From positions 1 to 64,000 of the forward strand of contig CAKKTI010000085.1 in the NCBI GenBank assembly GCA_920105805.1: a stretch of DNA of 64,000 nt, read 5' to 3'. Shown one piece after another: positions 2,439 through 62,514 of the stretch (position 1 is its first letter; every line of letters starts with the position of its first letter). The DNA is from Condylostoma magnum. Its lineage: Eukaryota; Ciliophora; Heterotrichea; Heterotrichida; Condylostomatidae. The notes beneath the pieces were generated by a model. The model saw only the letters and a program-made list of their open reading frames with translations, searched no databases and was not told the DNA's origin. A program made the position numbers and the translations under genes.

Positions 2439-3995
2439 TCAATAAGAAATTGTCAATTACAATTTAACTTTACTAAACTAGCTAAACCCCTTAGTTCTAA
2501 TTTGATCTTCTCCTTTCTTAATTAAATTGGAAGACATTGCTCCAATAATCTTTGCATTTACACTTTCATTAACACTTGCTTTATCTAGAGTACCTGTATT
2601 CTCGACACTCATTTAATTTTTATCATTATCCATTCTTGCCGCTACTTCATTAGTATTGATTCCCATATTTCTTGCACTTTATTTAAACAATAATACCTGT
2701 GAGCTCCATCTGTATTAATGGGGAACCTTTTTCAACTGTTTGCTTTCTATATCATCAGGCTTTCATCCCTGTTTTGGTGCAAAGTGATTAGGCTTCTGTG
2801 CTAATTTTTATTTCTTTTAATACGGCTGTACTGTAACTAGCTTTTTCCTTCTATACTCATCCGTGCCTTCCTATTAATCCAATTATTTATACTGACACTT
2901 TGGGGAAAATATTCTCTAAGTACTGATGAGCTAGGCTCTAGAAGTGAAACTAGGGTTTTTATAGTACTTATTCTGGTGCTCCCATCAATTAATCCCAGCT
3001 GTCTCAAACCTAGGTAAATCTACTCCATTATGAATTCCTATAGGAAGATTAGCAAAATGTTATAAGTTATAATTATTTGTCTGTAGTCTTCTTTCTTACT
3101 TGATCTAAGTTTATGTTTTATTCTCCAAACCCTCTGGTATAAGTTTAATATACTATTACTCCCTTTAAGTCAACCTTTAATCGCTATTAACATGCCCATA
3201 ATTCTTATTCTTTGATAATTCCTACAGTAAACTTTACCTGCGCATTTAATCCATCTACGATTTATACTAATAATTCGGTGATTTTGTATATGTCAATCCT
3301 GGTTGAGTTATAGATCTCCCATCAGTAGGACTTCCCAGATTAGCCAGTGACCTAGTCCGCATGAACTTATCTTATTACATCTGACTGAAGGTTTTTCTAT
3401 TCTAACTTGTTTACTAATCCGCGGTGAAAGTAATTCTATGTGGATTGGCCTCCCCTCATCTTTCCTAGGCCTGTTTGATATTATCTAGTCTTTCTTAATC
3501 TCGATGCTTCTACAGCTGTTTAGCAGTCCTATGTGCTGGTTGAGCAGTTTTCATGCTGGGATAAGTTTTCTTAAGTGGAGAAAAATCATCGTTGTCTAGC
3601 ACCTCCCCTCGCTTCTGCATAATTCGTATGGATCTATAAGGGGACGATACTTCCACTCCTCATATAAATTTATCCATTATTCCATCCTTAATAGCCTATT
3701 CCGCCTAAACTCTTTCCTATGGATCTAAAACACCGTCTTTGTTTTTATCAAAAATCCGTGAAATCACTAAATCCTGACCCCCTACCTTGCCATCACCGTC
3801 TAGGTCGTAGCTGGGATCAGGAATAGCCTCATACTTCCGTTTTTCCAGCATTTTCCTTCTAGATTTGCTCTATATGCCTGGATTCCACCCAGCTGGCAAT
3901 TTATCAGTTTTTTCTAAGTTAGCAGTTTTGTTACCTGGAATCTATTTTCCAAATATATCAAATCTGGGGAGATTATGTTAAAGCTATTTATTCAT
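2439..3995 (-). CDS. EF-hand-containing protein, otherwise unknown
   Basis: About 518 residues from ATG 3995. An EF-hand region lies near residues 50-90, with a loop of the form DLDGDGKVGGQD followed by DKNKDGVLDPQE, so it probably binds calcium. The rest is polar, Gln/Lys-rich and low in hydrophobic segments, with no recognised domain; a cytoskeletal or basal-body role is possible but not shown. The 3' end is ambiguous: in-frame TAG (2478), TAA (2457) and TGA (2439) follow one another within 42 bases, and the last is used here. Its start codon is only 47 bases from the divergent Bax inhibitor gene. Confidence 0.72.
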
Positions 3996-4042
3996 TTTTA
4001 GCTGTAAATTTAACATTTTGTTGGCATAAAACACGTAATAAA
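3996..4042. promoter_or_regulatory. 47-bp divergent intergenic spacer
   Basis: Only 47 bases separate the start codons of the minus-strand EF-hand gene and the plus-strand Bax inhibitor gene. Both promoters and both 5' leaders must fit here or extend into the neighbouring coding regions. It is AT-rich and no specific element was recognised. Confidence 0.5.
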
Positions 4043-4756
4043 ATGGATTCTTTTATAAACCGACCAATTGACTTGAACAATCTCTTCAAATTCAAAGATT
4101 TAGACAACCAGGTATAGGCCCACTTGTCAAAGGTGTACGCTGCTTTGTCAGCTTGCATTACAGCAGCTGTTATCGGCTGTGCTATTAGCTTGTATACAGG
4201 TTTCGGAGGAATTGGAACTACACTTTTAGCATTAGGATGTGTGTTTGGAATGATGTTCTCTGGTGATAAATCTGTATATAGGCCTGCATTTTTCGCTGGG
4301 TTTGGGTTCTTTAAAGGAATGAGTCTAGGACCCTTGGTATAATCAGCTTTTAGTATTGACCCTTCGATTGTTTTGACTGCTCTGTTGTCCACGACTGCTA
4401 TTTTTGTGTGTCTGTCCTTGGGGGCTTTGATGTGCAAGAAGAGAAGCATGCTTTATTTAGGATCGATACTCGGGTCAGGGCTGCTGTTTTTGATGATTTT
4501 AAATATTTTAGCTTTGTTCGGAATGAGATCAGAATTGATGATGAATCTGTAATTGGGGGTTGGGCTGCTAGTTTTTATGGGGTATGTTGTGTATGACACC
4601 TAACTTATGATCGCTAAGGTAGAGAGTGGTAATAAGGACTACTTACATCATGCTTTAGAGCTATTTATCGATTTTGTAGCAATTTTTGTTAGAATTTTGA
4701 TTATATTAATGAAGAATTCAAAGAAGAACGAAAAGAATTAGTCTATTAAGTTTTAA
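4043..4756 (+). CDS. TMBIM6: Bax inhibitor-1 / TMBIM6-family membrane protein
   Basis: 237 residues, the usual size of BI-1. It has a short hydrophilic N-terminus ([12 protein letters not shown]) and about six hydrophobic helices. The family signature is clear: [11 protein letters not shown] in the middle, then VVYDTQLM, and [13 protein letters not shown] near the C-terminus, followed by a Lys-rich tail. The family acts in the ER membrane as a calcium-leak and stress-survival protein. In-frame TAG (4739) and TAA (4754) lie four codons apart near the end; the TAA is taken as the stop. The next gene starts 64 bases on in the same direction. Confidence 0.93.
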
Positions 4757-4820
4757 ATCATGCTTATGTTAGTTGTTTTCCCTAATTTCTTATACACCAT
4801 TTTACCAATACATTAATAAA

Positions 4821-5516
4821 ATGAATTAAAATCTAGTAAATTTAAACGACACTTTTAGTAATGATGATCTTTATTAGCCGGACTGTTGCAATGAAACTCC
4901 TAAAGCTGAGTCTCTAAGTCAAGATTCCCTGGGCTTTTTACCCCCTTAACTAAACCTCTATGATTTTTCATAGCCTGACACACAATCTGGAAGTACTCCG
5001 AGAATGGAAACCTGATGATCTAACTCAGATTCTGCTAAACGGGCAATTTAGTCTGCTATGTTCAAAGATTATCCTGCTTTTTCAAATTCTTAAAAACTAG
5101 AAAACTTTGATTCTGCCTTCACTGATGCAGATTCTTATAGGTCTCTCACTCCAAACTAAGATGGAATGCTATATGCATATGTAAGATCTCTGTAAAATGA
5201 ATTATAGCATATTTACAGTAAGCTGGAAATTTCTGAAGCGAATTAGAGAACATCATTAAATGAATAGTAGCAACTAAGAGCTACAATTGGAAGAATGGAG
5301 AAGAGATTGTAGAAAATAAGGATTGAGGGAGAAACAAAGGATACTAGTTGTTCTAAAGCTTGTGAGCTGTTCTGAAATTGGTAAATAGTTTAATAAATTG
5401 ATTTAATGTACTAAGTTATAGATAATGTTATGAAGACTTATATGCTTTAGGGTTGTGGACTACTACTTTATTAGCTTCATAACTAATACTTTATAATAAT
5501 TTCCAAACTAACATAG
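4821..5516 (+). CDS. Unrecognised protein with a short coiled coil
   Basis: About 231 residues from ATG 4821 to TAG 5514. The N-terminal half is acidic, Ser/Asp/Pro-rich and probably disordered. A heptad-like segment near residues 115-170 (SLQNELQHIYSKLEISE and on) predicts a coiled coil. The last 50 residues are more hydrophobic. TGATGA near residue 73 reads as Trp-Trp. No family was recognised. It sits 22 bases before RABL2 on the same strand. The 3' end is uncertain because TAA/TAG codons also occur near 5378-5400. Confidence 0.58.
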
Positions 5517-20631: not shown

Positions 20632-22845
20632 CTAATTTGCCCTTAAACGATATAAAAGATAGCCTAGAGCTCCTGCAACTATAGCTGATACTCCAAGGAC
20701 TATTGCCTTATTTCTCTTAGTTTTCTTGGTCTTCTTGGTTTTCTCAGTTACCTTCTCCTTTTTCTTCCCCTGCACCTATACTGGCTTAAAGTTTTCCGTA
20801 ATCATAATATGTTATGATAAAAACTTAATTTCTTCCTGATAAGTTTCATACCTAAAGCTATATCTAATATTAGATAGATTTGAGCATTCCATATCATTAT
20901 TTTCTGGCAATCCGATTATATAATTTTAACCCAGCCACAGCTTTTTCTATTCTATACTAAATCCACTTACTAATACACTGTTTCTGGATATTTCAGCTAA
21001 GTCTACAGTGTTATAGTTCCAATACTGCCTAGCCACACTGTACTCCTCCAGTAAGGGATCTCTAGTTAAATGGCACATCAATGGATCACTAGTTGCTAGA
21101 GCAACATTCAACCCAGTTTCAAAGTAATAAGGAAAAGGATTTTTACCATACTTTAAAAACACCTTATTTTAAGCCAATGGAGGGACAGCAATTCCGAACT
21201 GAATTAGGTAGAATAAGTACTGCATAGTAGGATAGTTTTTTATATTAAGTCCTTGCGATATAGAATGTGCTACAAGAAAAGCTGAGGCTAAGTGAGTTAC
21301 ACTTCCTGCATCTCCACAATGCGGTCTAAATGAAAATGTATTGAGTCCTCTAGAGTTCCTTAACTAATTCAGCATGTAACAGTTAGCATATATGTAGTAC
21401 AACCAGTAAGTGTAAGGAGGCTACTCTGACTTTGTCCACTTATCCGCTGTTATACTCTTGTAGTTTGGATATATCTCATTAACCTCAGGCTTTGACTCAT
21501 CATCACAGCTATCAAAAGCCACAACGTTTTGAAGAAAAGCAGCTATTTCAGGGTGTTATTAGGGATTTAGAGTAGCTTGGAAAATAGGATAAAAGATGTT
21601 GTAGATTTACTCCTCATATGATTTCAGCAGATTCTTTTCTAGGTATTCGATGAAAATTCTAGGCACCTGAAGTACCCATTTGATATTTTCAGTTTGCAAT
21701 TCATTGTCTTTCACCCATTTTGCTATATTATACAACTCATTTTCGTTTCTACCATATAGCGACACCTTGTACTCCACTTTGATATAGCCATCATACCTAC
21801 TTATTACTTCCTTTGCCAGCTACCCAAAATAATCCCCCTTTCTATGGTTTTCTATTTTCAAGAAAATTTCACGAAGCTTAGCTGACCCTAAAGGATTGTT
21901 TTTGTTTTAAAAGGAGTCAAATCTTCCAAAAGTGGTCATATTAGCGTGCATATCAAGTGCATCCACTGTTAGATTTTCCGGCTAGATTCCTAATTCATTG
22001 AAAACATCTCTCAGAGTTAACTGCTTACCGTTTTCCACTATAACTACGTCATCGGGACATTTTTTATACTTATTTTTGATGAATTAAAGGAGTTGTTCTT
22101 AGTTCATGCAGCATGAAATATGGCAATTATTATCAATTTTTATACTGTTGTAAAAATCACGCTTTGGAGTCACCTTGCATTCTAGAAGCTCACTTCCTTT
22201 GTTGAAAATTTAGTGTAAGTTAAACTTTTACCGCATTGCCTTGAGCCTTTAGTCACAATTACCCCTAACACCAGGGTGTTGCAAGGATTTTAGTATTAAG
22301 TCGATGTCTGAATAGTACTGTTGTTAAGATATGGGGTGTATGTCTAACAGAGCTCCATTCTTCTAAAATCGGATAATTCCTTTTTTCATTACTACATCTA
22401 CATCTGAAGAAAGCTATTAAATAGGTTATTATTGTTTCCGCTCCACCAGTGTATTGACTAGAGGATGATCATTGATCTACTTGTCAATGTATATGTATTT
22501 ATTTCTAAGTAAAATAAGTCTGTATAGGATATTAGCGGTTGCACTTCAATCTTCCCATATACTTTTAGAACTTTGATCCTATTAATCCTCTACTTCTGTA
22601 ATTTCCACTCTATGGTAGTTTTTTATATGATTCTTTATCACATCCTTATCCTTCATAGAAATAATCCACTGCATACTTTGCTCTTCATTATAATTAAATC
22701 TAGCACTCTATGCAGCTATTTTCTAATCATCGTCGAACTTCGTAATAATCTATTTAATATCTTTATTCTTGTAGTTAAGTTGCTCCTGAAGAGATTTGAG
22801 TCCAAAACCCAAAGCTCCCTTATTCAGCTGGCTCTCCTCTGACAT
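20632..22845 (-). CDS. AMP deaminase homologue with lost active-site residues and a C-terminal membrane anchor
   Basis: 737 residues, clearly AMP deaminase from the CMNQ element through the C-terminal RYE region, but key residues differ. The first metal-site His of H-x-H is Asn240 (His242 remains). RPHCGEAG has become RPHCGDAG (Glu to Asp512), the catalytic His of NISHGL is Gln531, and the metal-binding Asp of STDDP is Ser586. The conserved LDxHA..NTFHRFD reads LDMHA..TTFGRFD. The last 40 residues are a Lys-rich stretch ([11 protein letters not shown]) followed by a single hydrophobic helix and LLYRLRAN, like a tail anchor. This looks like a membrane-attached pseudoenzyme, perhaps a scaffold or regulator. 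Stop TAG 20632. Confidence 0.92.
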
Positions 22846-24976: not shown

Positions 24977-26401
24977 TTATGAAGCCGAGGTGTGAATGCT
25001 GGTATTGTCATCATACTCTAAGCTTTAAGGAGTGGAGGGACTTTACTCTAAATTTTTTGCTTGTAAAATCTCCTAATACTCCCAATTTTCTCAAATTTTA
25101 GGCTTTTTCACTCTTATCTTAGTTAATTCAACCTGAAATTCAGCATTAAGATAAGGCTTATGTTCTATAATATCCTTAAGATGAGCTAAAACCTCATAAA
25201 AGAACTTTCTTGTGCGATTACTCTGCCTAGTACTTAAACAAAACTTAGTTAGAATTTTTACACATTTTTTGTCAATATGCAACTAATAATTCAATAAGGT
25301 AAGCCTAATATAATTAATAGCCTAGGAAACAAATTTCAAAGCATATATGTTTCTAATCAGCATGCTTAAAAAGAGCTCTATATTTTCCATTGATGATTTA
25401 GCGAATAAGGCTATTATCAGCTATGATGTTTTAGGTACATTAGTAGTTGTCAGTATATTTTCTTCGAAAAACTACTACAATAATGTATACGAAATATTAT
25501 GCATATCTATTATCTTTTCTATCACAAAAGGATAAATATCGTCTAATACTTCATAATCCTCCTCTGTCTCAATTACAATTAATTTTTAAAAGCAAACTTT
25601 TACTACGTCTTCCTACAGCTTAGGAACCTTTTCAACCAATACAAATAGATTCCTGAGATAAAATATTTACATGTAAGCATCGAACCTCCTATGTTAAAAC
25701 TACTTAGAAACTAATTCCCTTATTTAAGGAAGCATCATAGGGAAAAGTCTTATTATCCTAGCCAAGCACTCTAGCACCTTATCAGCAATTTCATTCGCCT
25801 ATTCCATCAATTCCTCAGATTTATTCTTCCTAGCAATGTCCATCAACCCTTACAAACTTTTCTTATACGAAATCTCAGTCTGATTTCCATCACAGTCAAT
25901 AATCTTAAAGCATCTTGTAGTTTTTCCGTTTTCCTTATGTATCCCAACAGTAATTCCCTTAAATCCCTTCAATTTCTCCGCTTATTTCGGATGATATTAG
26001 AACAAATCTACCAAAAAGCACTGATGGTTCTCGCTTAGCACATCTCCAGTGCTATAATGCTTCATGATTCTGTAAATATACTACGAAGCCTACCGCTCAT
26101 CCTCGAATTGGCATTCATTAATGAGTACAGGCAGTTAGAATAGGTCAATCTAGAAGTCATGGAGAGTTTTGAATAAGAGATTGCTAAGCTGTGAAACCAG
26201 AAGGGGTCTGCGGGACAGAAGAACCTGATTTGTTAGGGTTTAAATCATTGGAGTGAAGCGTTGGTCAGACGCACAGAGCTGAATCCAATTTATTTTAGAT
26301 AAATTAGTTAATATTTGAGGATATTCTAATATTTATGCTATCAATTCAGTTAGCTTTTCTGGATGATGCCGCAACTAGCTATAAGATATTTCTGTTTCCA
26401 T
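24977..26401 (-). CDS. RRN3: RRN3/TIF-IA-like RNA polymerase I initiation factor
   Basis: 474 residues, nearly all helical and HEAT-like. The segment around residues 210-280 resembles RRN3: LARIIRLFPMMLPQIRELV followed by QFQHRRFDAYMQIFYLRNLF, matching the family's pattern of a hydrophobic repeat, a basic FPHKR-like turn and a YxRNLL helix. RRN3 bridges RNA polymerase I and the promoter factor at rDNA. Shorter than yeast and human RRN3 (over 600 residues). Trp is TGA at KI-W-ENW near the C-terminus. It ends with tandem TAA TAG (24979-24974). The match is by pattern only; another HEAT-repeat protein is possible. Confidence 0.62.
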
Positions 26402-26414
26402 TATTATATGATTA

Positions 26415-26864
26415 TTAGTCTAGATGTGATAGGAGAAGTTTGGCAAGTTGGATTGATTCGTTTAAGGCCTTTTTAGTTGCTCTGTGCTTTTGTTTTGACC
26501 TGCAGCAGCTTCGGCAACGTTTAGGAAGGGATTTCTGCTTGCTTTTGTCCATGCTGAGGCTTCGGTTTTTAAGGGATTTGTACTTTTAGCGTATTTAAGA
26601 TTGGTTTTAGAAGTCCATTTCTGGCCAAAGGCCAAATTTTAAGTAGGTTTTTTAGAAGTTTTTGATTGTTTGTATTTTGCGCTTTGGGGCTGGGTTTTTA
26701 GGAGGTCTAATGAATTGTTTTTTAGTAGGCTTGCCTATGCTTAAATCGCATAGGATTGGAGAGTAGGTTGCTATGGATGAGGATAAGGTGCTAATTGAAG
26801 TATAGTCGTATTAGCTTAGGTTTAGCTAACCAAGTGGAGTGTGGGAAGGAGAAATTGTCGTCAT
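26415..26864 (-). CDS. Unrecognised small basic protein
   Basis: 149 residues from ATG 26864, ending in tandem TAA TAA at 26417-26412, 11 bases before the ATG of the RRN3-like gene on the same strand. Ser/Thr-rich N-terminus, Lys/Arg-rich middle, and a short Cys cluster (CRSCCRSKQKH) near residue 115. No family was recognised. Support comes from the clean double stop and the tight junction with the next gene. Confidence 0.55.
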
Positions 26865-30296: not shown

Positions 30297-30646
30297 ATAA
30301 AATGTAAGGTAGAAATATTTATGAGATTTATTAAAAGGCTATAATTTCTAATAGGCAAGAAATGATGAGAATAATTTATGTATTATAGTATTCATTGCAC
30401 AGATAATCAATAAACTGAGAAAAAGAATACTAGAAATTATAATAGCTTTGATGCAAAATTAAATAAGTAAAACTTTATATTAAGAATAAACCTCCTAAAA
30501 CTATTTATTCAATATGTGAAACTGCGTAAGAGATGTAATCTTACACAGCTAATAAAATACAATATTGCTCACCCTATTTAAGATCACACACATATCTCTA
30601 GTTGTATCAATTCCCAAAATATTTTTATCCTCTGAAATTAATTAAA
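30297..30646. other. Divergent intergenic region
   Basis: 350 AT-rich bases between the acid phosphatase start and the TRP-type channel start. Contains both promoters; no distinct element was recognised. Confidence 0.45.
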
Positions 30647-33600
30647 ATGTTTAAATCTCTCTTAATCTAATCAAGCGATTTAGGATCTATGAGGAATGAA
30701 TCGATGGATCTTTCAAGGGGAAGAAGTGTATCCCTATTTAGACTTATAGGAGGCTAAAATGTAGGGTTCTAGTTCGGAACAAACTTACTTATATCTTCAG
30801 GAATACTATCACCTAACATATTTTCTAAATTGTAAAGACTTAGGCCGAATCCTGACTCTGTCAGGATTATTGATGCCCTAGAGGAAGGAAATATTAATCA
30901 AGCAAGGGACATTGCATTAGACCACTAATTTATCATAGAAAACAGTGAATTTGTTTAGAAGGGAGAAGTAGTGAAAATTGCCATTCAAAACGGTTACTAT
31001 GAATTTGCAAGGGAGCTTGTAAAATCATGCTATTAACTGCCATCTTCCCTTATAATAGACTCTGTTAAAGATAATGACTTATAAATGCTAGATAAAATAA
31101 TTGAATAGGAGTTCTATACTGTTCCTTAAAGTTTAGAACTAGATTTTTGGTACTTACTGTACTCCGGATTGTATGACTAAGCAATGGATCTTTATCAAAA
31201 GGAGCAATTGCTGTAGTTATTCACCAGAGATTTTGATATAACTAACAAAAATCAAATTGACAACTTTTTATATAACAGTGATGTTCTAAGCAAGGTAGTA
31301 GAAATCGCTCTTATACAAGGCCATGATTTCCTAGCATCCTTTATACTGACAGAGTACCCTGAAGTAATAACCAAACTAATGATAAGTAAGGCAATTGAGA
31401 ACTCATGTTTAGAATTTTTAAAGTAAATTATAATCAGAAAAGTATGAACAGGAAATTACGAGGTGCAAGATGCAGACTAGATCAAAACCCGCTGTAAAAA
31501 GTCCCAAATCTGGGATATTCTAGGCTCCAGGAGTCGTGATGTGGAGGACAGACGTGATCTGGCAAAAACCTTAAAACTTTCTTATATACTAGACAAATTC
31601 CTGCAAATGCAAAAAATCGATGAAGCTGAGAAAATCATTTAATGGCCTGGCGCAGCAGATGAATAAGGAATTTTAAAGGTTTTAATAAATCATGAACAAC
31701 CAAATCTGGCTTGAAAAATAGTGAAAATTACTAATTTAGGAGCAAACTAGCAAGATTTCACAGATGCCTTTGAAAGAGGGTATTATCAGCTATGTGTGTA
31801 AGTTATAATCAGTGACATGTTGAAAAGCAAGGAGGCCCGAATGGCTCTAGACAACCAAGAAATACAAGAAGAAGTTATAAAGCTGATAGATAATGGTGAC
31901 ACGTTCCAAAATGCTATAGAAATGCTTAGCTATGTGAATCTACGTTACTGGGCATTTGAGTTGACTAAAGATCTTTGCAATATGCTTAATACATTTGCTA
32001 AAAAGCGTATAGAGATCCTAGTGTGTCACTCTCCCTTACTAGTATGTGCTTTAACAGCAGAACTGCTAGTAAGAATAGCTTAAACTTCCCTCCAACACTA
32101 AAACAGGTGTTTAGCAACTGCCGAGGTGTTTAAGGAGTTAGGAATTAGCATAGAAAACTCTATAAAGGATGAAGATGAGCTTAAGTACTTTCTAAACCAA
32201 AAAGACTCAAAAGGACGCACTGTTTTGACTATTCTATCAAAAAACAGGTTTTATACTATGCTGGAGGATAATGAGATTGGCACGATTGTTAGTAAAATGT
32301 GGATGGGATCTAAGAGGAACTATGGTATTTTAGGTGGATCTACTGTTCATAATAGCGCTGCGGCTCTAGTGGAGTCGGATGATGCAATGCAGTTCTCAAG
32401 ACCTATAGACAGATCAAAGCCATATATGTTTCATTTTGAACAATGGCTGGAAAGCTGTAGTTAAAGATTCATAGCACAGGGAATTAGTACTGCATGTTTG
32501 CTTATTTTCTATAATCTAGTCATTTACACTGCAATTGCAAGCGATAGCCTGCATAATGTCGGGAATGATACCACTGCTTTATTGTACTTAAGAATAAGTT
32601 AAGTATGGATTTTCGGAATAATTATAGAGCATTTATTACATTTCATATTTGAAATGAAGACTTAAAGGGGGTTTGAGTTGGACAATTGGAGGAAATTAGA
32701 CATCTTTATGTTCTGTGTTATGCTACTACTGATGATGGAATTACATGAAGAGTACATGGGAGAAGGAAACGCTCTGGAGTGGATTGATCCTACTATGTTT
32801 AATGCTGGGTTGCACTCCTTGTAAATTGTTATCATATGGATTAGATTTATGTCCGTTTTGATTACTTCTAAGGACCTTGGTCCATTTTTAAGAATGATAT
32901 TTCTTATGATATAGCAGATCATGACGTTTCTTATACTGTTCTTTTGTCTTCTCATATGTTCAGCTGCTGTTTTTACATCGTTGTTTAATGAATCAGGGCC
33001 TTCGTATGTAGATTTTGCAACTTCATGTAGAACACTGTATGCAGCTGCTCTAGGAAATTTTAACTTTGAGTCATTTACTGATAATTTAGCCCTAGGAGGA
33101 ATCATGCTAGGAGCGTATTTGCTAATAGCGAATGTTTTACTACTGAATCTACTAATCGCCCTGCTGGCTAACATTTACAGCGATGTTATACTAAAAGTAG
33201 ACAGTGAGCATAGGTCAGTTGTTATAGCTTACCATGATAGGTGGTTTTGGGATGATGATTATGGATTCTTAATATTTCTACCCTCGCCACTTACTTACAT
33301 AGTATTAGCCTTATCACCCTTAGTACTATTTACTAAAAATACAAAGAAATGGAACATGATGCTTACTTAGCTCTTTTATATATGCTACGCATTGCCGTAG
33401 TTTATTGTGTTTATAGTTGGATCCCTTATGATGGTACCTGTGTTGTACATTAAGGGTTTTCTTATTTATGGTAAAACAGGCTATTAACTACAATAACAAC
33501 TTTCCAAGATTGAGGAGAATGAGGAAAACGAGGAAAATGATGATGATAATTCTAATGAATCTCCTTAAAAAACACAGGATCAAGGCGTTGCAGTGGTTAC

Positions 33601-34306
33601 TTACGGCTTTAATATACCAAAATTCTTCCTTTGGTTTATGATAGGACTTCCCTGAATCCTCTTCGCAATAATAAGAGACTGTAAGGATTTCTGAAGTATG
33701 ATATATCTAACCACTGGATCATAAGAAGATGAAAATGACAAAACTAAAATACAATCGCTTATAGATGTCAATTTTATAGTAAATATATAAATTGTACTGA
33801 AAAATACTATAGCAGAAGCTATGACAGTAGAGTAATTCACAGATACATTATTAACACTAGAGTAGGCAAGCTCTTAAGACTATAACATGAAACTTCGCAA
33901 GGAAATACTGCTAGACTATTTCTTCCAATTTGCTAATTCTAGAAGCGATAGAACTATTGATATTGATAGGATGAGAAGACTACTACCCAGAATACCTCAG
34001 AAGAAGTATGATGATGAGTACATCGATAGGACTCAGCACATAAATGTGCCGTGGATAATGAAAGGCATCAAAAAGTACTAAGAGAAAATCGGCGCCATGA
34101 GCCTTGGGGTTGTTTCTTTACCTAAGGAACTAGGAGTTGGAGGAGGACCCCTGGACATTCAGCATATAAAAAGCATAGAATTATCTATAAACGAGTTGAA
34201 TAAAAAGTACGAGGAGATGAAACATGTGACTAAAGTAATCAAATCTTAACTAAAAGTGCAAAAATCGCAGTTAAGAGTATTCAAGCAAAAAAGACAACAA
34301 CTTTGA
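30647..34306 (+). CDS. TRP-type cation channel
   Basis: 1219 residues. The first 580 are helical and ankyrin-like/HEAT-like without clear ankyrin consensus. Six hydrophobic segments follow from about residue 605; the pore region (TSCRTLYAAALGNFNFESF) is followed by the S6 helix LLLNLLIALLANIY near residue 830, a TRP/ion-transport signature. An acidic loop (NEENEENDDDN) follows, with another hydrophobic segment and then a coiled-coil tail (SIELSINELNKKYEEM). Likely a non-selective calcium-permeable channel. The gene ends in three consecutive stops, TGA TAG TAA. Confidence 0.88.
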
Positions 34307-34312
34307 TAGTAA
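34304..34312 (+). other. Tandem stop cluster TGA TAG TAA
   Basis: All three stop codons in a row, in the frame of the TRP-type gene, three bases before the ATG of PIG-K. Each of these codons is used as sense elsewhere in the window, so the stack probably reinforces termination. Confidence 0.8.
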
Positions 34313-34315
34313 AAA

Positions 34316-35323
34316 ATGTCATTGATTCTAGTACTTTTCACATTCGTTTTTGCAGATAACTGGGCTATTATAGTTAACTCGTCGAAATTTTACTTTAATT
34401 ACCGACATACTGTGAATGCGATGATGATATACAGACAATTGAAGCGATTTGGGTTTACAGATGACAAAATCGTTCTAATGTTACCAGAAAATGTTCAATG
34501 TCACCCTCGAAATCCGTTTCCAGAGTAAGTTTTTAATGGAATGGATGATATTGACTACTACCAAGGCCTAGTGGAGGTGGACTACAGAGGCCCTGACTTA
34601 ACTCCTGATACAATAATACAAGTAATGACTGGAAGACACCCCCAAGGAACTCCAGCTAATAAGAGAATTGGCAGTGGCCCTGATAGCAATTTATTCATAT
34701 ATATGTCAGGGCACGGGGGAGATGGTTATTTTAAGATATAAGACACTTTAGTACTGCTTACTATGGATATTGCCAATGCGTTAAGAGATATGTATGTGAA
34801 TTAGAGATATAAGGAAGTTTTTATTATTGTAGATACTTGTTAGGCGTAGAGTCTGTATAAGTATATTGATGTTCCTAATGTTACATTTGTTGCTACTAGT
34901 TTAGTAGGTGAAATGGCGAAATCTTATGGTATGTATTCAGAGCTTGGATTGACTACTACTGATCATTTCTCGTACTTTATGGTCAAAAATATGCAGTAAA
35001 TGAGTGATAGAGAAGTAATTAATGCTAGTTTTGGGAAGTTATTTTAGAATTTAACTAAAGGAAGGATTAAAAGTACTATTGTGGCACATAGTGATAGAGG
35101 TCTTGATAACATATAAGTAAGGGAGTTTATGATCAATGAGTAATATAAGAAAGCCATAAAGCCAGTTGAGTACAAAATATCTAAAAAGTACAGTTATAGA
35201 AAGTTTGAAGAGATTTCCTAATAATAGCCAGCAAACAACGAGAATATAATACAGGAGTTTCAAGGCTTTTCAGCTTACTTTTTCATAGCACCTTTAATTT
35301 TTAGTATAGCTTATATAATTTGA
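34316..35323 (+). CDS. PIGK: GPI8/PIG-K, catalytic subunit of GPI transamidase
   Basis: 335 residues. Signal peptide (MSLILVLFTFVFA) then NWAIIVNSSKFYFNYRH, the conserved opening of the C13 cysteine protease domain. The catalytic pair is His133 in MSGHGGDGY and Cys175 in VDTCQAQS. A hydrophobic segment near the C-terminus (FFIAPLIFSIAYII) anchors it in the ER membrane, as in yeast Gpi8. It cleaves C-terminal signals and attaches GPI anchors, important for ciliate surface antigens. Ends TGA TAA, followed one base later by the next ATG. Confidence 0.96.
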
Positions 35324-35939: not shown

Positions 35940-37615
35940 TACCTCTAATACATACCCCCGGGTGCAGCTTCTCCCTTTTCCTACGGTAAATCTACCACCA
36001 TAGCCTCAGTTGTAGTCATTAAACTTGCAACACTAGCAGCATCCTCCAACGCTGTTCTTACCACCTTAGTTGGATCCACAATCCCTTACTTAACCATTTC
36101 TACAAACTGATGGTTCAGTGCATCATACCCTATCTTCTCATCATTTAACTCCAGCAAATGCTCAATAATAGCACTTCCATCCCTGCCAGCATTTTCCGCA
36201 ATAGTTGAAATAGGTTATCTTGCTGCATTTTCTACCATTTTAATTCCAATTTGCTCATCTGGTGTTGCCTCAGCCTTCAACGCTCTTAATTTCTTAGTGG
36301 CATATAACAAAGCAGCCCCTCCACCTACAACAATACCTTCCTGTACTGCAGCCTTGGTAGCATTCAACGCATCAGTGACCCTGTCTTTTATTTCCCCTAC
36401 CTCTACCTCCGATGCACCTCCTATTTTAATAACAGCTACTCCTCCTACCAGCTTAGCCAGCCTTTCCTACAGCTTCTCACGGTCATAGTCACTCTTAGTC
36501 CCCTCTATCTACTGTCTTATAGTGGAAACACGGTCATCAATGGAAGCCTTATCTCCGGAACCATCCAGTATCAAAGTATCATCCTTGCTCACTACCACCT
36601 TCTTAGCACTTCCAAGCACCTCTACACCAGACGTGTCCAGCTTTAAACCTAATTCTTCACTTATCAATTGTGCTCCGCACAATACTGATATATCAACCAT
36701 TGTGTTCTTACGGTTATCACCAAACCCTGGGGCTTTAACAGCACATACTTTTAACCCCCCACGAAGTTTGTTCACTACTAAGGTGGCTAAGGCCTCACTT
36801 TCTACATCCTCGGCGATTATTAAAATTGGTTGTCCGGATTTCATGGAATGTTCCAGAAAAGGAAGAATTGATTGAAGTGTTGACACTTTTTTATCAGTGA
36901 GGAGGATTAAAGGGTTCTCTAATTCTACTTTTTAGGTTTTAGCATCAGTGACAAAGTACGGTGATATGTAGCCTCTGTCAAACTTCATACCTTCTACTAC
37001 GTCTAGCTCATGTTAGAGAGTTTTACCGTCTTCGACGGTAATTGTGCCTTCTTTACCTACTCTTTCCATTGCTGTTGCTATTAATTCCCCTATTTCAGAG
37101 TCTCCGTTGGCTGATATTGTGGCAACGTTTCTGATACTGTTGCTATCCTCTACTTCTATTGCCCTGGATTTAAGGTCTTGGATCATAACCTCAACAGCCT
37201 TGTTAATTCCTCTGCGAATACCCATAGGATTAACTCCTGCTGCCACTGATCTGACTCCTTCAGCAAAAATAGCTCGAGCAAGTACCGTTGCTGTAGTTGT
37301 GCCGTCACCTGCCTCATCGTTAGTTCTACTAGCAACTTGCTTCACAAGTTGAGCTCCTATATTTACGTATCTGTCCTAAAACTCTATTTCTTTAGCCACT
37401 GTTACTCCGTCCTTTGTTATTTTAGGGGCACCAAACTATCTGTCAATAACTACATTTCTACCACGTGGACCCAAGGTTACTTATACTGCATCTGCAAGTC
37501 TGTTGCAACCTTCAAGCATTAAGGCTCTTGCGTCTCTTCCAAAGCGAATATCTTTGCCAGAGAAGGCACGGATTCCTAGTGTTTTTGCTAGTTAAGTAGA
37601 TCTACGAGATAGCAT
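35936..37615 (-). CDS. HSP60: Mitochondrial chaperonin HSP60 (GroEL family)
   Basis: 559 residues. A short mitochondrial-type presequence ([20 protein letters not shown]) leads into the chaperonin: [10 protein letters not shown], the ATP-site DGVTVAKEI and [26 protein letters not shown], and [10 protein letters not shown]. The usual Gly/Met-rich tail is short (APGGM then YQRY). HSP60 folds imported proteins in the matrix with HSP10. A minor note: the last residues depend on whether TAG 35945 or TAA 35936 is the stop; the latter interlocks with the stop of the convergent gene. Confidence 0.98.
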
Positions 37616-57000: not shown

Positions 57001-60000
57001 TTCCTATTTAATCATTTTTTGAATCTTCTTACTATGATTAATCGTTTAAATAAAATTTTACCACTTTTAATGGTTATCATCATATTTTCAATTATCATTT
57101 TAGAGCTTTGCAGGGGACTACTAGGTTATAAGCTAATCTTATTATGGGATTTCAATGGAAAATTAGTTACAAAGATCAAAAACATGTTCTAACGTCTAAA
57201 AATCCACTCTACTTGCTCACTTATCAATTCATTTGATAATAGTTGTTAGATACCCGTATATTTAATCAATATCATCTTAGTCTTTGATTATATCTTTATC
57301 TATTAAGTATTATGAATTATAACACTGCAAAGTTTTAATAAAAATCTTAAAAAACTCAATGAACTCGTCATCTCCCTAAAACAAATGCCTTTCAAACATC
57401 CTTATCTATAATTGAATATACTCAAAAAATTCCTTACAACTGTACAATTACTCAGTTAGTTTCTCAGCATTGACATAAATATCGTAAAAGAAGTCAATTA
57501 GAGGTATTTTTAGTACATAATACTAGCTATCCTGCATTTCTGCATATGTTAGTAATTAGAAAGTTTGTCTCAAAGGAATAATTTTTTAGCACTTTGCTTC
57601 GTTTAAGTATACTCCTGATGCACCAGAGCCACACAGCTTCAGAACATTTATCAACTTTGCATGGTAGTAAAAGGGAACATCTATGCTTGAAGAGAGTTAG
57701 TTTTCCACTATATCAAATTAAAACTCGTTTGAACTATTAGCTTTCATGAATAAGATCTTTTTAGATTCTTAATTCTGTAAAAACATCATTAGTACAATTC
57801 GTTAAATCTCTGGAATAGGTCTGTTTTTAGGAACTTATACAACTTCAAAGATTTCTAGAAATATAGGTTATCTGCCTTTATTTAAAATTAATTGAATAAA
57901 TTTCTGCAGTAGATCTTCCTAAACTTAGCTACAGAGTTTGTAGTTATCTCTGAAAATTTCACATATTAATTAGATTTATCCGAGCTGTATATCTAAGTTC
58001 TATGTAAATAAGTATATATATTCACTCAATGCACTTTAATTTTTAGGGTTGTTTTATACAAATTTTACAAGTATATTAAAACAAAGCTCAAAGAATTCTG
58101 AAAGTTTTTCTATGGCTTCTCTTTCACTCTAGTTTTTAGGATTGCTGTATATTTCTGCAAGTATGTGTATACCATCTCTTATTAGATCGATAATCTGTAT
58201 ATGTAATTCTAGGTGAAATAGCATATTTTGTCTTAAAACTGAAATACTGTCGTCTTAATAACTAACTGGAACTCCATGAGTTATTTAAGAATCCTTTTAT
58301 AATAAAATTTCATAGTATTCTAATAATTCTATGACTATTTCAAATTTTCGCATGTTTTTTTGTTATAAATAAGGTTATTATACCCAATATCTTAACCATA
58401 GTTCACTTTATTCTATGTTTTGTTATAACAGCTTCTTATTATCCTTGGCCCAAGTGAACACAGATGTATCCTCTATTTATGTTATGACATGCAATTGCTT
58501 CAGAGAGTATATAAGTTCTTTTCTTTATCTAAAACATCTCAGTATAATTCCTAATAATTCAATTTACATCTTGGGATCTATAGTTATCATAAACACTTAA
58601 ATCAAGTCGATTAAATAAGGTGTTCCCCAAGTATTTAAATCTGGAATTATAGGCCTAAAATATACTTAAAATGGTTATTTTTGAGACTTTTAAACTAATT
58701 TTGTAAATAATTTGTCCTTAGAATTAGTACTCAAGTTAATCTCCATTATTTCAGGTAGTAAATTCATTATTTCACTTCCCTTGAATTCATCGTCCTCTTT
58801 ACCATTAAACCATTCAACTATATTAGAAATCAGAAAATCTTACCTTAAATTGAGAAAATAGTCAAAAATTTGAATTATTTATAGTTTACACTTAATTTCA
58901 ATATCCTCTTCTTATGATTCATCTCCAGTAGTTTCCTGCAATGCATTTATATAATTCTTTAGATTAGAAGCATGTCTTAGAATAGGATGCTTCATGAGTA
59001 GTTGCTTATTATTTAGCAATTTTTAATCTTCTGCACGGTCTTTGGATGTTTTAATTCCTTGTGAGGCCTTAGGAGCTATTAAACTTTCTATAGAAGTGTA
59101 CTAACTAATGGTCATATTAGACTTAAACTCCGACATTTGTTAACTATTTATCAAGATTGTCTTTACTTACTTCACTAGTAAAACAATATCAATTTTATGT
59201 GCTATGTACAGAGATGACCATGGATTTATAACACAAAAATCTCCCTCTTTATCAGTATATAAGGTACTGAAAAGCTCTAATTTACTCATTTTAATAGCCA
59301 TATTTAGCATTTAATCTGTGAAAGTGTTGAAAACTGGGTTAAATTTTAGGTTTTTGAAGTAATCTATCAAATTCATTTTAAGCTCTTAAAGTATTATTTG
59401 ATTAGAATCGAATTTTATTATATCGAATTCCTCATTTAAGGTCTCAGAAGCTAGTATTCTACTTTGTCTTGGTAAATTTATTACATTAGCTGCTTGTCTT
59501 CTTCTCTAATTCTTTACGGGAACAGTAGCCGTATATCTTCTTTATTCTAACTTTTCCATCTACTTCAAATCAATTCCTAGATCAAGACTATATTTTTGCA
59601 ATTCCGTAACCCTAGGATCACCTTTGGACACAAATCTAAGCACTCTTATCAGCTCAGGCTTTATATTCTCTTACCTGGGCAGTGAATCAATATACATATT
59701 TAGTAGTAGTCTTGCAAAGGCAGATCTGATTTCAAATGTTAGTTAATCATTTCAGATATTATTCAGCAATGTGACTATAGGAAACCAGTCTCTTATACTT
59801 CCTATACTGATGTAGTTTCTTCCTAAGCATAAATCCGCAAATAGCTCCAACATTCTAGTAAAATATTACAGCTCAGTGTGATATAAAATCAAGTGAGAAT
59901 TTTCAAAACATGAGTCTAATAAAACATTCTCTTCTCCTAGTCCACTTTAGTGCATTAACGTCACATAAAAGTTTTACCTATTTTCATTAGTAGTTGTAAT

Positions 60001-62109
60001 TATAACAGCTCTGCTATGAGTATCCGGGTTTAAAAACAGATTTTTATGCACTTTTTCCTAGTTCATTGATAATCCTGTTTTATTACACACACAAATTGTC
60101 CGTAAAAATTCCAAAAGTTAAGGTTTTCTTGTACGGTAGAATTTTCTTAGAAGCCATGTGTAATGGTTTATTATATCAGCGTTATCTTTTGTCAGATTTT
60201 ACAGTTGAATTAACAAACTTTCGTTATTTTCTAGTATAGACATCATACACTTGGAAGCACCTAAGCCATATGCTGCGTGTTTTTGAAAAATAGGGAAAAA
60301 CTTGCATAGGTATTATTAGTTTTCTGGGTTTCTTTTGCAGATAATGATTATTAAATCATAGATTTGCCTTATTATCGAAATAATATTATATAGAATATAA
60401 GTTTCGTACTATTCTCTAGTAATTCTAGTTTACTAGTAATTAACATAACTTTATAGCTCATCATTTTTTACTCTTAAAACCTTTTGCAGTGAAAATGGCT
60501 CTATGAAGCTAGTTTTGCATATTTCAGCTATAAAATCAATAAAATGTTATTCTTTCAATATTTTTTACCTCTAATACTAATATTATCCGTACATCTTATC
60601 AATTGATGTCATACTTTGATGTTTATTTTAACAGAAAAGCCCTATGTTTTTAAGAACTTTGCTTATAAGCTTTTTGTACTGCTCAAATTACTATAAAAAG
60701 TAAATCAGTGATGATTCCTGCTATTAAGTAGCCTGTACAACTAACTCTGGGAATTTATACAGAACTGGAATGCAATTTAATAAAAATAAAGTCTCCCATA
60801 CTATATTGTCATCTACTTTAAACACTTTAAAATACGAAAACTCATCCGGGTTATTGGTAATAACAGGCAATAACTAAATATCTAAGTTATCAGGAGTATT
60901 TATTCCATGTAAAACCATCCCAGTGGCATTATTAACTAGTCTATAGTACTAATCACTCTACAAATACCTTTATTTATTTGTTTAATTTACTAGTTCAAAT
61001 TTCCAATATGAGTACTTAGTCTTCATATCACTTACTGATACATTATAAACAATTCCTTTATCAGTTATTTTATCAGCTATATACTTCCCCAGCCCCTTAA
61101 TAGACAAAAAGTCTTAGTTCTTAGGATCTGCGATTAAGTAAAGCCCATTACTTATATTCCTCAGTCTATAATTCTTCCCTAATTCAATCAACTCACTTTT
61201 ATACACATCCGCTCCTTCTATTTACCATAATCCATTGCTATCGCTTAATTAAGAAGTAAACTTAGCATTGGCATCTTCCCCAAGCATCTTTTAATTTGAG
61301 CAAATTAAACACAGTTCTTACTCAGCATGAGTAATCCATATATAATCTCCTGTAAGAAGAAACCCTAGCTCCTCATTATCAACCTTACACTGCATGTTAA
61401 TCTATCATCTAGTCATTTTCTCCAAACTTGCATTGATCTCGTAAAAATTAGCGTCATTAGTAGGATTTAAGTCTCTTTTTAAATTAGTTAGTACATTAGT
61501 GCCTTAAATCACCGAAGCAGAGCAATGTAAATACGCAGGCTTGTGTAACTCTAGTACAGAAATCTGCAGTATAAGTTTGTCTCCGAATTAGATTATACCG
61601 TCTCCCTCTTCTTAGTACTTAAAGCCTGGAATTATTCTAAAATGTGAGTAATAGCTGCCGTATGATTTTAGTTTTAGCTTTAAATTATCCTTTTCCTGAT
61701 TAGCATTGTCTCTAGGCTTTAGGGTTAAAAACTTATGAGAAACAACGTGAAGAAGCTAAACCAACGCGCCAAATTTTACAGGTTCACTCTTAAAATTATT
61801 AAAGGATGAGTAGTTACTTCTGATTTCATTTTCTAAAGTTTGCTCCTAGTTTTGGATGGCTTCGAGGAGATTTTCACCTGTTAGTTCTTCTGAACATTAT
61901 AGCAAGGAGTTCTGTACTGAGTAATTGCATTGGGGGACTATCCTGAAAACGCTATAGGAGTATAGATTCTTTGTCTGTTTTATTGAGTCGTAGAGTTGTA
62001 TGGAGTTGTCTATGAATCCGTTTGAGTATAGATAACCATTATCGTTGATACTCAGAGTAATTTTGCCACCATAATGCAGAACTTTGTTTTAATCGATTTT
62101 TTCTTCCAT
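54097..62109 (-). CDS. ITPR: Inositol 1,4,5-trisphosphate receptor, full length
   Basis: 2670 residues in one frame, the normal size. N-terminal ligand region with MIR-type repeats (VLHYGGKITLSI, GALVQLLHVVSHKFLTL, LRNISNGLYLIADP, VLHGINTPDN). A long helical RIH-type region follows. Six transmembrane helices lie near 2270-2540. The filter is GGIGGYL rather than GGVGDVL, so the acidic residue is Gly2502. The cytosolic end DTFADLREK and the zinc-finger-like CFICGL...HTIYEHHEWNY are intact, with Trp as TGA. It releases calcium from internal stores. Ends TAA TAA (54099-54094). Confidence 0.95.
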
Positions 62110-62514
62110 TTATACTAAAAGGGATATTGAAGATTGAATTAATGATTTGACCTATTTTTAGTTTGATATTTATTGATTTTGAGTATTTTTGATTAATTTA
62201 AGACATTTTGAAATATTGGTAATTTTGAAGCTCAAATTATATAATTATTGTTTGTATTATAGCTTAAAATTCCAAATCTATATAAGTTGCATTGATTTTA
62301 ATGTTAGTATAAGTCTTTCCCTGAGATTTCACTCTACCAAATATCCCTATAAAATATATTTAATAAAAAACATAACAGTATTACAATATAGCAGCAGTCA
62401 TAAACAAACTAAAACTACTTTCTACAATAAACACGTGCATTTCAACTCCAAAGCAGTCTAATTGTAATAAATAATTTGTTTTAAAACGGATATAATTAGG
62501 CTTATAAAAATTAA
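62110..62514. other. Divergent intergenic region
   Basis: 405 AT-rich bases between the IP3 receptor start (minus) and a small secreted protein (plus). Open frames here look non-coding. Nothing recognised. Confidence 0.45.

Follow-up and report, generated by a model that had tools for sequence, protein, structure and literature searches.

A putative tail-anchored AMP deaminase-like protein of Condylostoma magnum with a substituted active site

The locus and its genetic code

The window analysed here is a stretch of 64,000 nucleotides of Condylostoma magnum DNA (contig CAKKTI010000085.1, positions 1 to 64,000). Its AMP deaminase (AMPD)-like gene lies on the minus strand (22845..20632) and consists of 737 codons, which are read with no break once TAA and TAG are taken as Gln and TGA as Trp (Table 1). 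The initial annotation had placed the gene correctly at 20632-22845; its strand is added here. Inside the gene 30 sense TAA or TAG codons are read as Gln and a single TGA as W100, while under the bacterial code the same frame is crowded with stops. Translation table 6 (TAA and TAG as Gln, TGA as stop) was tried and rejected, as the gene would break at codon 100 and would also extend past the TAG at 20632, overlapping the neighbouring RsmB/F-type methyltransferase frame at its start. There is no need to assume an intron at codon 100 once TGA is read as Trp. The TAG at 20634-20632 is very probably the true stop, since an in-frame TAA follows shortly after it and the next gene begins just downstream in another frame. 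This downstream neighbour carries a 16S rRNA methyltransferase RsmB/F domain, and only a short spacer lies between the two separate frames.

The same reading applies to other genes of the window. TAA and TAG serve both as Gln and as stop, and TGA is a sense codon within genes, i.e. the pattern is that of the Condylostoma-like ambiguous code (NCBI table 28). An HSP60 gene (35945-37615, minus strand) has 11 internal TAA or TAG codons and ends in GGMY-TAG, and an IP3-receptor (ITPR)-like frame of 1,699 codons (57229-62328, minus strand), with Ins145_P3_rec, MIR and RIH domains, reads through two in-frame TGA codons. The code usage in the window matches that described for Condylostoma magnum, in which each of the three stop triplets may also encode an amino acid, termination takes place close to the end of the transcript and the 3' UTRs are very short (PMC4967479).

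Other genes of the window include a membrane protein of the Bax inhibitor-1 family (3479-4864, plus strand), a large Ion_trans/polycystin-type ion channel whose N-terminal region is long (30452-33655, plus strand) and a Peptidase C13 (GPI8-like) gene with a hydrophobic segment at the C-terminus of its product (34307-35320, plus strand). In addition, one frame at 25091-26860 (minus strand) has matches to DUF3223 (residues 264-335) and to the Pol I initiation factor RRN3 (residues 347-436), and is a candidate fusion.

Table 1. Features of the AMPD-like gene, in the order of the encoded protein; residue equivalences are given in FAC1 numbering
Feature	Position	Strand	Basis or remark
Whole gene	20632..22845	-	ATG 22845-22843, 737 codons, stop TAG 20634-20632 (very probable), in-frame TAA soon after
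N-terminal region, residues 1-143	22417..22845	-	no Pfam match; holds the only in-frame TGA (W100)
AMP deaminase domain, residues 144-681	20803..22416	-	PF19326 and alignments
Ile235	22141..22143	-	effector-phosphate Arg position, FAC1 Arg386
Asn240 (AAT)	22126..22128	-	first zinc His position, FAC1 His391
His242 (CAT)	22120..22122	-	second zinc His retained, FAC1 His393
Ser311 (TCC)	21913..21915	-	AMP-phosphate Lys position, FAC1 Lys462
Asn316 (AAC)	21898..21900	-	AMP-ribose Tyr position, FAC1 Tyr467
His509 (CAT)	21319..21321	-	third zinc His retained, FAC1 His659
Asp512 (GAT)	21310..21312	-	catalytic Glu position, FAC1 Glu662
Gln531 (CAA)	21253..21255	-	catalytic His position, FAC1 His681
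Ser586 (AGT)	21088..21090	-	zinc Asp position, FAC1 Asp736
Met590 (ATG)	21076..21078	-	substrate Gln position, FAC1 Gln740
Lys-rich linker, residues 693-713	20707..20769	-	sequence
C-terminal hydrophobic helix, residues 714-732	20650..20706	-	hydropathy; then RLRAN and the stop; candidate tail anchor

The AMP deaminase domain and its active site

The Pfam family PF19326 (AMP_deaminase) matches residues 144-680 with 632.3 bits (gathering cut-off 27), and the E-value of 1e-189 excludes a chance match. The NCBI equivalog model for AMP deaminase (TIGR01429) scores 615.7 bits, which is below its curated cut-off of 726.3, meaning that the NCBI rule would not call the protein a functional AMP deaminase. 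By sequence, the only relatives with a solved structure are Arabidopsis FAC1 (2A3L) and human AMPD2 (8HU6, 8HUB, 26XC). The protein is ~45% identical to each of them over 497 columns, FAC1 and AMPD2 being 60% identical to one another, and the alignment with the two contains no frameshift across ~536 aligned residues. The fold had been described as kept over all 737 residues; this holds for residues ~144-681, but the first ~143 are without a Pfam match and the C-terminal ~56 consist of a linker and a hydrophobic helix. A single-sequence structure prediction of the protein gave a pLDDT of 32.

For the zinc and catalytic residues we use FAC1 numbering in which the first zinc His is set to 391. 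From knowledge of the ADA/AMPD family, together with PMC3042610, we take His391, His393, His659 and Asp736 to be the zinc ligands, and Glu662 and His681 to be catalytic. The substitutions that the initial annotation had reported at positions 240, 512, 531 and 586 proved exact to the residue when the protein was aligned to FAC1 (2A3L) and AMPD2 (8HU6, 8HUB and 26XC). Of the zinc site, which is made up of three His and an Asp, two ligands are changed (His391 to Asn240, Asp736 to Ser586), and the catalytic motifs read GDAG (Asp512) instead of GEAG and ISQG (Gln531) instead of the SI-x-HG type. The initial annotation had allowed that intact catalytic residues might be found elsewhere; neither the alignment nor a motif search of the whole protein found any. 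The protein contains no HxH, GExG or HG motif, nor a further DD, that might take over from the lost site, and the intact site has thus not moved elsewhere.

The losses extend into the AMP pocket. The pocket residues of FAC1, both the AMP contacts and those of the effector phosphate, are named in PMC3042610, and we transferred them by motif, as the text and the legend of that paper are inconsistent for some residue numbers. In this way four more losses were found: Lys462 to Ser311, Tyr467 to Asn316, Gln740 to Met590 and Arg386 to Ile235. Four of the seven AMP contacts are kept (Phe463, Lys466, Arg476 and Asp737) and three are lost (Lys462, Tyr467 and Gln740); the equivalent of Arg380 is retained. 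A sequencing error is not a credible source of these changes, since replacing Asp736 by Ser takes two or more base changes and the eight losses are spread across ~1.1 kb.

The pseudoenzyme reading is thus well supported: both catalytic residues, Glu and His, are changed, and so are two zinc ligands out of four. Judged by its sequence, the protein is a member of the AMP deaminase family by homology, yet it fails the features that define the enzyme. We consider it highly probable that it is not an AMP deaminase, and it is very unlikely to be active as a deaminase or to produce IMP.

It is instructive to compare these losses with the conservation of the domain as a whole. FAC1 and AMPD2 are identical at 296 positions, and 183 of these (62%) are kept in the ciliate protein, which retains the conserved blocks RDFYN, CMNQ, DDESKPE and EEYS. 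A working enzyme would be expected to keep near 100% of its functional positions; here 7 out of 15 are kept, and loss at functional positions is not in significant excess over loss at other conserved positions (odds ratio 0.52, p = 0.28). Protection of the active site no longer exceeds that of an average conserved position, and the domain is still recognisable and in frame.

No second AMPD copy was found within the 64-kb window, where both probes matched this gene only. Four different alignments found no relative in bacterial and archaeal genome contigs or in viral contigs, and there was none in phage and plasmid records. A literature search on AMPD pseudoenzymes and ciliate AMPDs returned nothing relevant among the papers covered.

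The C-terminal tail and comparison with known proteins

The Lys-rich linker and C-terminal hydrophobic helix described in the initial annotation are present after the AMPD domain. Residues 714-732 (19 residues) have a mean Kyte-Doolittle value of 2.07 and are clearly more hydrophobic than any other stretch of the protein, the next best (~1.15) being located in the AMPD core. This is the sole hydrophobic segment and it lies within ~30 residues of the C-terminus, as in tail-anchored proteins. The claim that the protein is membrane-anchored is plausible in view of a hydrophobic helix so near the stop, even though it is a prediction from sequence; a lone terminal helix between basic residues is in keeping with a tail anchor, and we regard tail anchoring as likely. 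Moderate hydrophobicity combined with positive charge on both sides fits the outer mitochondrial or the peroxisomal membrane rather than the ER, and the tail would fit one of the former over the latter. Fis1, a C-tail-anchored protein of organelle membranes, has a single, moderately hydrophobic C-terminal helix with basic flanks of this kind, although the predicted cytosolic domain is in our case an AMPD domain.

The two relatives of known structure differ from the ciliate protein in several respects. FAC1 (embryonic factor 1 of Arabidopsis) shares the domain, at the 45% identity given above, but has all of its zinc and catalytic residues. The membrane segment of FAC1 is N-terminal, plant AMPD being membrane-associated through an N-terminal transmembrane domain (PMC3042610); the one predicted in the ciliate protein is C-terminal. 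Human AMPD2, equally 45% identical, has the same domain and the same order of motifs and belongs to a tetramer-forming family; it is, however, catalytic, and in the solved structures its chain stops shortly behind the domain and shows no extended Lys-rich linker or hydrophobic tail.

Many metabolic enzymes have dead paralogues. The yeast proteins YBR284W and YJL070C are described as AMP deaminase-like proteins that lack key catalytic residues, and as such would set a eukaryotic precedent for AMPD paralogues without catalysis; we know of no C-terminal tail like the present one in either of them. Two points set the ciliate protein apart at the level of sequence, namely its putative anchor at the C-terminus and how much of the pocket has been lost. 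A stripped AMP deaminase site is here joined with a putative membrane tail. We consider this of moderate relevance for purine metabolism and pseudoenzyme research; it opens no new class of system.

Possible roles of the protein

The initial annotation had taken conservation of the frame to imply selection. An open frame is by itself a weak argument and proves little here, since TAA, TAG and TGA may each stand for an amino acid in this code; a better argument is the lack of frameshifts over the ~536 aligned residues. The same observations bear on the possibility that the gene is a decaying AMPD duplicate that has lost its function and is still free of frameshifts by chance. Decay would agree with the change of 38% of the AMPD positions shared between plant and human and with a loss of functional residues no less frequent than that of others (8/15), and the openness of the frame cannot be held against it as evidence of selection. 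On the other hand, the homologous part has remained free of frameshifts, 62% of the shared positions are kept, among them the four blocks listed above, the start and the stop are intact and the spacer to the next gene is short; we regard decay as improbable.

Two further readings assign the remains of the pocket a function. A membrane-tethered sensor of AMP or phosphate, which would bind the nucleotide without turnover, was the suggestion of the initial annotation, and it is weakened by our results. The equivalents of Phe463, Lys466, Arg476, Asp737 and Arg380 do remain, but those of Lys462, Tyr467, Gln740 and Arg386 are replaced and half of the zinc site is gone, which removes much of the grip on phosphate and base. 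Nucleotide sensing is doubtful because the AMP pocket, and not only the catalytic site, is degraded, and we give it the same low probability as decay. Alternatively, the protein might be an enzyme with an altered metal site or substrate, in which His242, His509 and Asp587, together with a new Cys241, support another hydrolase activity. These residues are in place, as are Phe312, Lys315 and Arg325, and Cys241 adjoins His242; yet the catalytic Glu and His are both changed, two metal ligands have been replaced and contacts to the substrate are missing. We find an altered enzyme very improbable.

In our opinion the best explanation, to which we give an even chance, is an inactive, membrane-tailed AMPD paralogue that acts by protein-protein contact, most likely in mixed oligomers with active AMPD. 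Such a protein could neither hold the catalytic zinc nor deaminate AMP; its C-terminal tail would insert into an organelle membrane, leaving the AMPD domain to face the cytosol, where the oligomer surfaces of the AMPD domain would mediate the contact. In the mode that seems most likely to us, mixed oligomers with a catalytic AMPD might place that enzyme at the membrane or tune it there. The working form of AMPDs is a homo- or hetero-tetramer (PMC12246493), and contact with other AMPD subunits would thus be the simplest use of the domain that is kept. This specific mixed-oligomer role is at most a tentative proposal. In its fullest form, which we regard as speculative and rather unlikely, a dead, tail-anchored AMPD subunit is kept by selection in heterotrich ciliates and, via mixed oligomers, recruits or allosterically tunes active AMPD on an organelle membrane. 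If the protein has been retained by selection, the AMPD fold would be reusable as a membrane scaffold or as a regulatory subunit in adenylate metabolism.
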